Source: Promethearchaeota archaeon (GTDB lineage: Archaea; Asgardarchaeota; Lokiarchaeia; Sigyniarchaeales; SOKP01). From it: 64,000 nt of DNA. Positions 19,773 to 25,313 of the stretch are shown piece after piece. Made by a program: the position numbers and the translations under genes. The notes below the pieces were generated by a model. That model saw only the letters and a program-made list of their open reading frames with translations, was not told the DNA's origin and searched no databases. The stretch is taken from the NCBI GenBank assembly GCA_016839765.1, contig JAEOTP010000069.1:50629-114628 (forward strand). The letters are read 5' to 3'. The stretch's first letter is position 1; each line of letters opens with the position of its first letter.

Positions 19773-21818
19773 TTAAATTTCTTTTTCATCTGTTTCAAAT
19801 AAACCAGAATATGGTTCAAGAAAATGATTCATACACATAGGACAGGTGTTTTGTTTTGTAAGCCAGTCAGCTACGCATAAATAATGATATGTGCTTCCAC
19901 AGAAAGGACATGTTATCAATTTATCTTTGGCAAAATTTATATTTTTATGGCAAACAGTACACTGTACTTTAGAGACCGCAACTCCTTGCCGAATTTTAAC
20001 CTTCTTTGATACAATTTCTTCTAATTTGGCAACTTCTAACTGATATAAACCCAAACTTGCAGTTAATTGATTAATTTTCGCGTTGATCTCTAAAACTCGC
20101 TCTTTTAATTCATCCTCCGATAATCGTTCAGCCAAGAATGCGGATAATGCAAAATTTAATGGAAGCCCCTCAAAATTTTCTGTTTGTTTTGTTATTTCTG
20201 TTATTTCAGCAAATAAAATGGATTCCTCATCAATTAAGTCCTTAAAACTTTTAAAAATTTTATTAATGAGTAGAGTTAAAAGAAAAGTTAATTGCTGCTT
20301 TTTCCGGTTAAAATTTGTTTCCCAATGTTTAATGACATTGTACATATCAAAATTATTTTCTTTATATGTATTTAGTTTTATATATACTTCCTCTTTAATT
20401 TCATCGATTTTAGTTTTATAATTACTTAAAAGCTCTCGTATTTGTCTTAATTGTGGTAATTCTTCTTTAATTACTTTAGAAGTTTCATCTTCATAAGAAC
20501 TGATTAACTTATTAACCTCAGCGATCTTTCCATCAACGTAAGCTCTAATATCGACTCTTAATCCTTCATCTTTAATACTGTTCAAATAGATCTTATACTC
20601 ATCTTTTCGACGATAAATTTCTGAAATTAAATTTGCAAGTGTCTTTTTTAATGAGTTAGTAATACTTTCATAGGGTTTTAAAAACTGGTCAAAATTTAAA
20701 AGCCAGGTGTCGATCCCATCAATTTTAGATGAGAGATTATCAATTTTTTCATAGTAAGAATTTACAATCTTAACAAATTCATCAATATTTCGCTCATCTA
20801 CCTCATTAATGATAGATTGGAATGTTTTATCTAATCCTAAAAAATAGTATTCAACAATTTTAGGTAGAAATTCTTTGAATTTTTCTTTCATTAGTACATT
20901 TACATCTGATTTTCCTTTCGGTCCTTCTAAATCGTATTTTTTATCAAGTTCGATAATTTCATTAAAAATCCCTTTCAATTTATCTTCAATTATAGAAAGG
21001 ATAAAGGGACGCATTTTAGCTTTTAAATTATGAACAATATCTTTTCTTTCAACAATATTAATAAATTCTTCTCCTGCAAATTCCTCAAAGATATTATTTT
21101 TCTTTAACAAGAATATAAGATCCTCGTAAAAAGTTAATTTTTTGTCTTGTTTACTTAAAAAATATTGATAAAGCTCATCAAAGTGGAAAGTTATAACAAC
21201 CTCTTTACGAGATCTAATTCTTATCTTGGTTTTTGCTTCTACTAAACTAGTTAGGAATATAAACAATTCCTGAATTTCTTTCCAATAATTTAGAGATTCT
21301 GGTATATCATTTAGTTTAAAGTTTAAATTTTTAATTTTATTTGCTTCTATCCATAAATATATATCATTATCATAATCTTTTTCAATCTCTTTAGTATGTC
21401 TTCTTAATATTGAAATAAGTGTATCTGTTTCATTAATTAGATTGTTTGTATGAACCATAAAGTCATTAATATGTTTATGATCTTTTAAAAACCGCTTAAT
21501 ATTTCTCCCGTTTGCACTTAAATTAGATAAATTACTGGATAATAATCTTAACTCCTCCTGGATCTCATTTTTCAAATTTAAATAAAAACTTTTTTCCGAT
21601 TCTGAAACCAAATACAGTTCAATAAATTGCTTAATATTTTCAATATAATCGGTATATAAATCAAGAATTTCAGTATTAAATTGTGACTTTATAAATTTGT
21701 CTAGCTCAAGATTATCTGATTTTAATTTTAAAATTTGAGTTTTAATTTGCAGAATTTCATCCTGTTTAAAACCCTTAATTTCTCTAGCATTATTGAAAGT
21801 GTTATTAAATATATACAT
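19773..21818 (-). CDS. Coiled-coil protein with C-terminal RING/PHD-like zinc-binding domain
   Basis: ~600 aa helical region, then CTVCHKNINFAKDKLITCPFCGSTYHYLCVADWLTKQNTCPMC. Confidence 0.75.
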   Translation of the reverse strand: MYIFNNTFNNAREIKGFKQDEILQIKTQILKLKSDNLELDKFIKSQFNTEILDLYTDYIENIKQFIELYLVSESEKSFYLNLKNEIQEELRLLSSNLSNLSANGRNIKRFLKDHKHINDFMVHTNNLINETDTLISILRRHTKEIEKDYDNDIYLWIEANKIKNLNFKLNDIPESLNYWKEIQELFIFLTSLVEAKTKIRIRSRKEVVITFHFDELYQYFLSKQDKKLTFYEDLIFLLKKNNIFEEFAGEEFINIVERKDIVHNLKAKMRPFILSIIEDKLKGIFNEIIELDKKYDLEGPKGKSDVNVLMKEKFKEFLPKIVEYYFLGLDKTFQSIINEVDERNIDEFVKIVNSYYEKIDNLSSKIDGIDTWLLNFDQFLKPYESITNSLKKTLANLISEIYRRKDEYKIYLNSIKDEGLRVDIRAYVDGKIAEVNKLISSYEDETSKVIKEELPQLRQIRELLSNYKTKIDEIKEEVYIKLNTYKENNFDMYNVIKHWETNFNRKKQQLTFLLTLLINKIFKSFKDLIDEESILFAEITEITKQTENFEGLPLNFALSAFLAERLSEDELKERVLEINAKINQLTASLGLYQLEVAKLEEIVSKKVKIRQGVAVSKVQCTVCHKNINFAKDKLITCPFCGSTYHYLCVADWLTKQNTCPMCMNHFLEPYSGLFETDEKEI

Positions 21819-21976: not shown

Positions 21977-22597
21977 TTATTCTCCAAGTTCTTTAATTTC
22001 AATAAATTTCTCTTCTGCTCCTTCTTTTGAAATAATCAGTAAATCAATCCCATTTCCAGACATAGCATCTCTCTTAATAGCATTTCTTATAGCTTTTTCA
22101 ACAAGTTTCTCGCCTTCAGCAATCGTCATACCTAGTTTATATTCTGCTTCCAAAATCCCATAAGACAAGAGCATTCCTGTTCCAGCCGCCCCATAATCAT
22201 CTGGCATTAAAGATCCAATAGCATCAAGCGTATACAATTTTGGACCATCTTTATCTAATCCTGCTACAATTAAATTAGTCAATAATGGCATCATCTTACG
22301 CGAGTATAAAAAATTCGAAACTAATTTAGCTAAACTCTGCGTACTTATTCGCTCACCAGCATCTAATTCGTATAAATTAGCTTGAGCTCTTAATATTTTT
22401 ACTAGAATTTGAAAATCTCCTATCAGTCCATATGCAGCCAAACCAATATGATCTATAATCTTAAAGACTTTCTGGGTGGACTTATTGACTACTGTATATC
22501 CCCACGTCGCTCTTCTGTCGCTACCAAGAATAACACCATCCTTACATTTGATAGCTATACTTGCTGCCCCGGGGATCATAATTTCCTGTTGACTCAA
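21977..22597 (-). CDS. psmB: 20S proteasome beta-type subunit, predicted non-catalytic
   Basis: CKDGVILGSDRRATWG, GLIGDFQ, YELDAGERIS, AAGTGMLLSYGILE, RDAMSGNGIDLLIIS; Thr1 position reads PGAAS instead of GTTT. Confidence 0.9.
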   Translation of the reverse strand: MSQQEIMIPGAASIAIKCKDGVILGSDRRATWGYTVVNKSTQKVFKIIDHIGLAAYGLIGDFQILVKILRAQANLYELDAGERISTQSLAKLVSNFLYSRKMMPLLTNLIVAGLDKDGPKLYTLDAIGSLMPDDYGAAGTGMLLSYGILEAEYKLGMTIAEGEKLVEKAIRNAIKRDAMSGNGIDLLIISKEGAEEKFIEIKELGE

Positions 22598-22720
22598 AAA
22601 TAATAAACCTCAAAAAATAATAATTTCAATCTTGAATTAGTTATTATTTATAAATAATAAAGAATTAATTAAAATTTTTGTTTTAAAATATAAAATTCCT
22701 CGAATAAAGGGAAATAACAC

Positions 22721-23461
22721 TTATTTTTTTCTCATTATAAAGAAAGTATATCCATAATATTCTGAATAATTCCTAAACATTTTAATTTCTACACTAAATA
22801 ACTTAAGCAATTCAAGTGTCTCATTATCATGTTGGTATTTTTTGTGTAATTTATTAATGTTTTTCTCTACGGGAATATAATAATTATCCCACCAGCTAGA
22901 TTCGGGAATGTTAAAGTGGGATATCAAATTTAGTCCTTTAGAATTTATTGTTGTTTTATTTTCTTTTACACTTTTCATCACTGGATATTCGCTCATCAAG
23001 TAATCATATATTTCTTTCGGAGCGTTTTCCTTAAACCAACATAGCTCTGAAATCACGAGATATCCTTTTTCTTTAAGAAAAAACGGCCAATCTTCAAGTG
23101 CTTTTTCAAATCCGTAGATATACGCTGCTCCTTCTGACCAAATAATATCAAAACGATTAACCTCAAATTTCATATCAAGCATAGATTGATTTATTGTAGT
23201 TATTCTGTGAGAAAAATTCAAATTCTTAACTCTTTTATCTAGCTCATCGAGATAAGGCTGATGGTTATCTAATGCTATTATTCTTCCATTTGTTAACCTG
23301 GCTAGTTCTAATGTTTGCATACCATTACCACATCCCACATCCAAAATGCAAGGCTCTGAAGGTAATTCCATTAGATAAGAAAATGCATTTTTTGTAGATT
23401 CATTATCACCAGGTCCTTGTCTTGGCAAATCTGCATTAAATACTTCGTATATGATATCCAA
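22721..23461 (-). CDS. Class I SAM-dependent methyltransferase
   Basis: ILDVGCGNGMQTLELAR, RFDIIWSEGAAYI. Confidence 0.85.
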   Translation of the reverse strand: MDIIYEVFNADLPRQGPGDNESTKNAFSYLMELPSEPCILDVGCGNGMQTLELARLTNGRIIALDNHQPYLDELDKRVKNLNFSHRITTINQSMLDMKFEVNRFDIIWSEGAAYIYGFEKALEDWPFFLKEKGYLVISELCWFKENAPKEIYDYLMSEYPVMKSVKENKTTINSKGLNLISHFNIPESSWWDNYYIPVEKNINKLHKKYQHDNETLELLKLFSVEIKMFRNYSEYYGYTFFIMRKK

Positions 23462-23528: not shown

Positions 23529-24191
23529 CTATTTGATAACTTTATAGCTTATTTCTTTGCCATTTTTATCATAACATCTCACATTTTTTATCCCATAAGG
23601 GAATCCTATGATAAAGTGACAAAAGAATCCTTTAAAGATGCCCCTTAAATCTTGTAAGGAAGGATGAGGATTTCCAGAAGGATGTGAATGAACACTTGCT
23701 TGATAATAACGATCTAATGGAAGTCTAGATGAAGTAAAAATCCCTGATATTTTTGAGGTAAGGGTACCTGGAGGTAAAATAAACTCATTAAAAATTTCTT
23801 TTTCCATTTTTAAGATTCCTAAGATTTCTCTAGGATGATGTTCACGACATAATGTTATAATTCCTTCTAATAGCTCAGCTTTTATCAAAATTGTATTAGA
23901 TTCTAAATTCTCAATAAAGGTTATGATTTCATTGATAATTTCTATAATTGGTTTAGGATTTTTTGATTTCCACGTGTTTAAGGAATAAATAAGACGATCA
24001 AGTTTTTTATATATATCCCCATTCTGATTAATTAATTTTACTTTAGGTTTTTTTGGAAAATTTCTATAATCAATTTCTAAAATAGTTCCCTTTTTTAATT
24101 GAATTGAGATATGTGAGATTAATTTGTTATAAATTTCAGCATTAGGAAAATGCTTTATGATGTTTTGATATTGATCTTCTATGCTATCCAT
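23529..24191 (-). CDS. JAB/MPN (JAMM) metalloprotease-domain protein
   Basis: HPREILGIL...ASVHSHPSGNPHPSLQDL matches E...HxHPx7SxxD. Confidence 0.85.
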   Translation of the reverse strand: MDSIEDQYQNIIKHFPNAEIYNKLISHISIQLKKGTILEIDYRNFPKKPKVKLINQNGDIYKKLDRLIYSLNTWKSKNPKPIIEIINEIITFIENLESNTILIKAELLEGIITLCREHHPREILGILKMEKEIFNEFILPPGTLTSKISGIFTSSRLPLDRYYQASVHSHPSGNPHPSLQDLRGIFKGFFCHFIIGFPYGIKNVRCYDKNGKEISYKVIK

Positions 24192-25094: not shown

Positions 25095-25313
25095 ATGGCA
25101 AAAAAGAAACATTCATTCGCGTGGAGCCCCATCAGAAGATTAATGAAGCAGCAAGGCGCTAGCATTGTCGCTCGAAATGCAGTTGATTTATTAATTGATC
25201 ACCTTGAAAAGACAGCAAGTGGTCTTACTGAACAAGCAAGAGCCTTTACAATGCATGCGAACCGTAAAAAGATAACCAAGAACGATTTACTCTTGTCGAT
25301 TAAATACAAATAA
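25095..25313 (+). CDS. Archaeal histone
   Basis: 72 aa; SPIRRLMKQQGASIVARNAVDLLIDHLEKTA...AFTMHANRKKITKNDLLLSIKY, a histone fold with short basic N-terminal extension; good RBS ggaggaatg. Confidence 0.9.
   Translation: MAKKKHSFAWSPIRRLMKQQGASIVARNAVDLLIDHLEKTASGLTEQARAFTMHANRKKITKNDLLLSIKYK

Follow-up and report, generated by a model that had tools for sequence, protein, structure and literature searches.

The window, a stretch of 64,000 nucleotides from a genome assigned to Promethearchaeota archaeon, contains a gene for a proteasome beta subunit without the catalytic Thr1, termed T1-less here. The features of this locus are listed in Table 1. The protein matched the Pfam family PF00227 with 179.8 bits (cut-off 22.4), its residues 10 to 189 covering profile positions 4 to 189 of 189, and this score is far beyond chance. 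It scored 220 bits with the beta model TIGR03634, as compared with 94 bits with the alpha model TIGR03633, so that an alpha subunit, the objection foreseen in the initial annotation, is ruled out. The score is below the equivalog cut-off of TIGR03634 (224 bits), as are those of the two active betas that the genome also encodes (217.7 and 170.9 bits).

Table 1. Coordinates of the T1-less beta gene, its key codons, and neighboring genes in the window
Feature	Position	Strand	Basis
T1-less (non-catalytic) psmB-like gene, 206 aa, TTG start	21977..22597	-	Pfam and alignment to orthologs
Codon GCA, Ala11 (position 1; Thr1 nucleophile in active betas)	22565..22567	-	Alignment
Asp27, corresponding to Asp17 of the catalytic frame, kept	22517..22519	-	Alignment numbering
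Lys43, corresponding to Lys33 of the catalytic frame, kept	22469..22471	-	Alignment numbering
GAGG, possible ribosome-binding site, 10 nt 5' of the TTG start	22608..22611	-	Inference from sequence
Helical protein of 681 aa, RING-type zinc finger at its C terminus, collinear downstream of the beta gene	19773..21818	-	zf-RING_2, 31.1 bits (cut-off 27.3)
Methyltransferase gene	22721..23461	-	
Prok-JAB (JAMM) gene	23529..24191	-	
Histone-fold gene	25095..25313	+	

Catalytic residues, gene start, and gene neighborhood

The open reading frame translation and the alignment reproduced exactly the SDRRAT and QKVF blocks reported initially, as well as PGAASIA in the place of GTTTVG. In Thermoplasma acidophilum numbering, positions 1, 17, 33, 47, 129, 166, and 169 are occupied by Ala, Asp, Lys, Gly, Thr, Asp, and Ser, respectively. 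Among the residues by which family T1 is recognized, Asp/Glu17, Lys33, Gly47, and Asp166 are thus present, and Ala stands where Thr1 should follow Gly. A structure model had also been proposed as a check; the AlphaFold model (pLDDT 81, with low confidence for residues 1 to 9, which precede position 1) has the fold of a beta subunit and matched beta subunits at TM scores of 0.8 to 0.9, including the Saci0613/Saci0662 core (PDB 6z46). Among the matches listed, identity was 41 to 44% to 6z46 and 34 to 39% to active archaeal betas. The same core was the best sequence match among solved structures (171 bits).

A frameshift, a misassembly, and a hidden upstream Thr were each considered and ruled out. 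A stop codon interrupts the frame a few codons 5' of the TTG, and no TTT motif was found in either of the other two frames read at the gene start. A sequencing error is unlikely because the sibling genome (L008), whose T1-less beta is 97% identical, has the same N-terminal residues. In relatives, an ATG is aligned with this TTG, and most of their proteins begin with M-S/A-Q-Q-I-M-V-P-G-A (e.g., MSQQIMVPGA).

The RING gene was located 3' of the T1-less beta gene and on the same strand in nearly all of 42 named Lokiarchaeaceae loci, and the pairing was found in further genomes in which the identity of the RING protein fell to approximately 33%. Its zinc ligands were invariant in 21 aligned sequences, and conservation was much higher in the C-terminal than in the N-terminal part; a structure search against the PDB gave no match at E <= 0.001. 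The RING gene does not adjoin the T1-less beta in the Prometheoarchaeum, Harpocratesius, CR_4, and Sigynarchaeum loci. It is plausible that the RING protein is tied functionally to ubiquitin-proteasome degradation.

The Prok-JAB and methyltransferase genes lie 5' of the beta gene on the same strand. They occupy this position in the window species and in its sibling (L061), the nearest named record (97% identical at the T1-less beta), and are missing there from all other Lokiarchaeaceae loci; the pair therefore resembles an insertion. The histone-fold gene, located on the opposite strand some 2.5 kb upstream of the beta gene, is highly conserved in most relatives and remains near the T1-less beta in many Lokiarchaeaceae loci.

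The genome surveyed (3.32 Mb, 96% complete) contained six places that match PF00227, namely, two alphas (L001 and L004), an alpha fragment (L006), two betas (L003 and L005), and the window gene. The second psmB gene with GTTT that the initial annotation proposed to search for was found: the two paralogs bear Thr1 in the contexts GTTTVG (contig C93, L003) and STTTVG (contig C67, L005), and they are accompanied by the two alphas. Since the genome encodes normal cutting betas, the T1-less subunit is an addition to them. Two PAN-type ATPases above the curated cut-off and three E2-like proteins were also detected. The alpha fragment (L006:1429-1743, + strand; a 104-aa open reading frame) corresponds to the C-terminal part of an alpha gene, lies 3' of the intact alpha2, and is apparently the remnant of a tandem duplication. 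A second Prok-JAB (JAMM) gene (L005:947-1456, + strand) is convergent with the active STTTVG beta, a possible link between the proteasome and a deubiquitinase.

Distribution and ancestry of T1-less betas

Orthologs were present in most relatives and, as judged by profile search, across the Asgard phylum. We inventoried 31 Asgard genomes, representing 26 families, and 23 of them contained a T1-less beta. An intact Thr1-bearing beta accompanied it in 22 of these, and the remaining genome (G048) had a partial beta of the active type. In each of the eight genomes without a T1-less beta, the only beta had Thr1, and most of these genomes encoded just one alpha with the beta adjoining it; the label "Heimdall-type" for such single-beta families is suggested by the beta tree (UFB 98). 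The initial annotation had assigned a hetero-beta core to "this Asgard": the set of genes is indeed present here, but it is not peculiar to this archaeon, as most of the phylum and also Sulfolobus have it. A few Lokiarchaeaceae genomes gave no T1-less match, which is probably, albeit not certainly, due to their incompleteness. Two genomes of the window's class, G151 (L138 and L162) and G156 (L142 and L163), harbor an extra alpha-beta pair, the beta of which groups with the single-beta (Heimdall-type) lineages. This suggests the transfer of a second complete proteasome.

Position 1 was Ala in 96 of 98 distinct orthologs and Ser in the other two, with no Thr among them; a partly overlapping set of 23 contained 20 Ala, 2 Gly, and 1 Ser. 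Ala1 was better conserved than positions 2 and 3. The two orthologs with Ser, L013 and L018, are closely related Lokiarchaeal proteins that read PG-SCGVA. Asp17 and Lys33 were kept almost throughout, the latter in 27 of 29 T1-less sequences. The reading frame was intact in nearly all of approximately 100 distinct orthologs, 43 columns were invariant across 19 divergent orthologs, and dN/dS was 0.15 with respect to the nearest sibling and between 0.03 and 0.26 for close pairs. The gene is under purifying selection.

With positions 1 to 3 removed from the alignment, all T1-less Asgard betas and Saci0662 formed one clade (UFB 100), and the loss of Thr1 itself was therefore unable to drive the grouping. 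The 29-member clade was recovered exactly (UFB 84) from an alignment of 138 columns that had been stripped of residues up to 35 and of the loops around 47, 129, and 166 to 169. The TACK archaea, including the Crenarchaeota, were represented in the tree by Saci0662 alone; with this sampling, Saci0662 shared ancestry with the T1-less betas to the exclusion of the Thr1-bearing ones. The active Asgard betas comprised a B5-type clade (UFB 100) and B3-type lineages. Leave-family-out hidden Markov models separated active from inactive subunits with 0 errors in 77. In the trees, the T1-less clade predates the split of the Asgard families. The recovery of the clade and the HMM classification indicate that the loss of Thr1 is old and probably occurred as a single event in this lineage.

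Proposed role in the 20S core

The closest functional precedent is that of Sulfolobus acidocaldarius. Saci0662 together with alpha yielded an inactive particle of 28 subunits, the catalytic beta Saci0909 alone failed to hold alpha, and co-expression of alpha, Saci0662, and Saci0909 gave an active particle in which Saci0909 was the minority; its authors termed Saci0662 seemingly catalytically inert and structural (PMC4569737). Because the window gene is orthologous to Saci0662, for which a mixed ring has been reconstituted (PMC4569737), we attribute a structural role to it, in agreement with the hetero-beta core with structural subunits that had been put forward initially. We are confident that its product is a beta subunit of the 20S core with a structural and non-catalytic role, most likely part of a mixed ring with the Thr1-bearing paralogs. 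The protein folds as an ordinary beta subunit. It would occupy positions in both inner heptameric rings beside its two Thr1-bearing paralogs and contact the alpha ring, and its incorporation would leave each barrel with fewer cutting sites. By analogy, the Lokiarchaeal subunit may co-assemble as Saci0662 does; our search of the literature found no experiment on any Asgard proteasome. There is no obvious reason why a purely structural subunit should retain Asp17 and Lys33, and this counts against such a role; most inactive eukaryotic betas likewise keep Lys33. A purely regulatory role, the alternative given in the initial annotation, is conceivable as well.

Four other readings were weighed. 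The T1-less beta could form an alpha7-beta7-beta7-alpha7 particle on its own, which would have no cutting sites and, as a holding or regulatory chamber, would compete for PAN or substrates. A stable 28-mer made exclusively with T1-less betas has a precedent in the Saci0613/Saci0662 particle (PDB 6z46; PMC4569737), but the active Sulfolobus beta held alpha only when the inert beta was present, and co-expression of all three brought it into one complex with them (PMC4569737). The retention of T1-less subunits is also tied to the presence of active ones, which mixing explains better, and we regard a separate particle as unlikely.

We give even less credence to a subunit that is still catalytic, with another N-terminal residue, or Ser1 in some orthologs, serving as the nucleophile after processing. 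Ser1 can act in mutated proteasomes, and Ser occupies position 1 in L013, L018, and one divergent homolog (L180). The window protein, however, has Ala1, Ala2, and Ser3, and positions 2 and 3 vary freely among orthologs, whereas Ala1 is nearly invariant; no conserved propeptide is present, and the Saci0662 particles were inactive (PMC4569737). The initial annotation had reckoned with another Thr, Ser, or Cys exposed as residue 1, and no conserved candidate for it was found.

It is similarly improbable that the Lokiarchaeaceae subunit acts outside the core together with its RING-protein neighbor. Across the family the two genes have stayed together, also in genomes with a strongly diverged RING protein, but this adjacency may reflect co-regulation only. 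Moreover, other families possess the T1-less subunit without a RING neighbor (L102 to L112), and the pair is therefore unnecessary for the general role of the subunit. Finally, the loss of the nucleophile alone would permit decay, and some genomes have no match, but intact frames, a dN/dS far below 1, and the invariant columns in a clade older than the Asgard family split make a pseudogene in the process of being lost the most improbable reading of all.

The structural reading in a mixed ring lends itself to experiment, since the cultured strain MK-D1 shares this set of subunits (L106; L189 to L191), and their composition and activity are therefore directly measurable. A near-invariant Ala1 combined with retained Asp17 and Lys33 constitutes a natural test of the non-catalytic roles of the catalytic frame.

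Relation to eukaryotic and other known proteasomes

The eukaryotic proteasome has seven different beta subunits, three of which cut, and how these seven types arose is still to be explained in accounts of the origin of eukaryotes. We analyzed human beta1 to beta7, with sequences checked against PDB chains. In a joint tree, beta3, beta4, beta6, and beta7 fell inside the T1-less clade (UFB 99), and beta1, beta2, and beta5 were found among the active subunits. Placing each human subunit singly with FastTree put all seven on the expected side when 189 columns were used, with beta3, beta4, beta6, and beta7 joining the T1-less betas; with 138 columns, beta3, beta4, and beta6 stayed there, beta7 left, and beta2 was ambiguous. 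The sign of the HMM score difference agreed with expectation for all seven, and the differences toward the T1-less model were +19.8 bits for beta3, +16.9 for beta7, +9.9 for beta6, and +0.3 for beta4, the last being a tie. An AU test did not reject the monophyly of all human betas (p = 0.26). Taken together, these comparisons are suggestive of an ancestry that human beta3, beta4, and beta6, and less firmly beta7, share with the T1-less clade, with the strongest signal for beta3.

A possible scenario, which we put forward tentatively and to which we give somewhat less than even credence, is that the T1-less betas have a single origin, older than the Asgard/TACK split, with Ala kept fixed at position 1, and that the non-catalytic betas of eukaryotes, most clearly beta3 and beta6, descend from them. 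The Thr1-bearing lineage would have given rise to beta1, beta2, and beta5, and the T1-less subunit would have been lost from Asgard lineages of the Heimdallarchaeum type, in which one alpha accompanies one beta. Because only one beta, an active one, is present in the lineage to which G083 belongs, eukaryotes could have inherited the T1-less subunit only if it was present in a related, unsampled lineage or was lost later. If this scenario is true, eukaryotes did not invent the division into cutting and non-cutting betas. A T1-less subunit that is ancient, spread Asgard-wide, and shared with Sulfolobus offers a plausible intermediate, namely, a mixed ring with two or three types of beta.

Non-catalytic archaeal betas are already known from Sulfolobus, and the Lokiarchaeal case was anticipated: a MEROPS article of 2017 noted that Asgard archaea have more proteasome subunits and, in the part of it considered here, depicted hetero-beta complexes with inactive betas for Lokiarchaea as a speculation (PMC5753285). 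The complex drawn there resembles the window gene in its inactive betas, and that part of the article deals with neither their family nor their distribution or ancestry (PMC5753285). No study of the ancestry of Asgard T1-less betas was found in the open-access literature searched. Our survey adds that T1-less betas are an old group, present nearly throughout the Asgard archaea, in which Ala1 is almost fixed, and that an active beta, or in one genome part of such a beta, accompanies them wherever they were found. The grouping of human beta3, beta4, and beta6 (beta7 less firmly) with the T1-less clade and the RING pairing in Lokiarchaeaceae also appear to be new.

The active archaeal PsmB proteins (T. 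acidophilum, A. fulgidus, M. jannaschii, and L003 and L005 of the same genome) share with the window protein the fold, an acidic residue at 17, Lys33, Gly47, Asp166, and Ser169, but have Thr1 and Ser129 in the place of its Ala and Thr, and propeptide cleavage is not expected in the window protein. Saci0662 (PDB 6z46) belongs to the same clade, is the closest solved sequence, and, as in the window genome, occurs alongside an active beta. Its mature start reads xTAIG (residue 1 being outside the alignment) and that of the window protein AASIA, as compared with TTTVG in active subunits. The two systems differ in that Saci0662 assembly has been reconstituted whereas the Asgard subunit is known here from its sequence, and in that the window genome has two active beta paralogs and S. 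acidocaldarius one. Like the archaeal T1-less betas, the eukaryotic beta3, beta4, beta6, and beta7 have no active Thr1 and mostly keep Lys33, but they are highly diverged.
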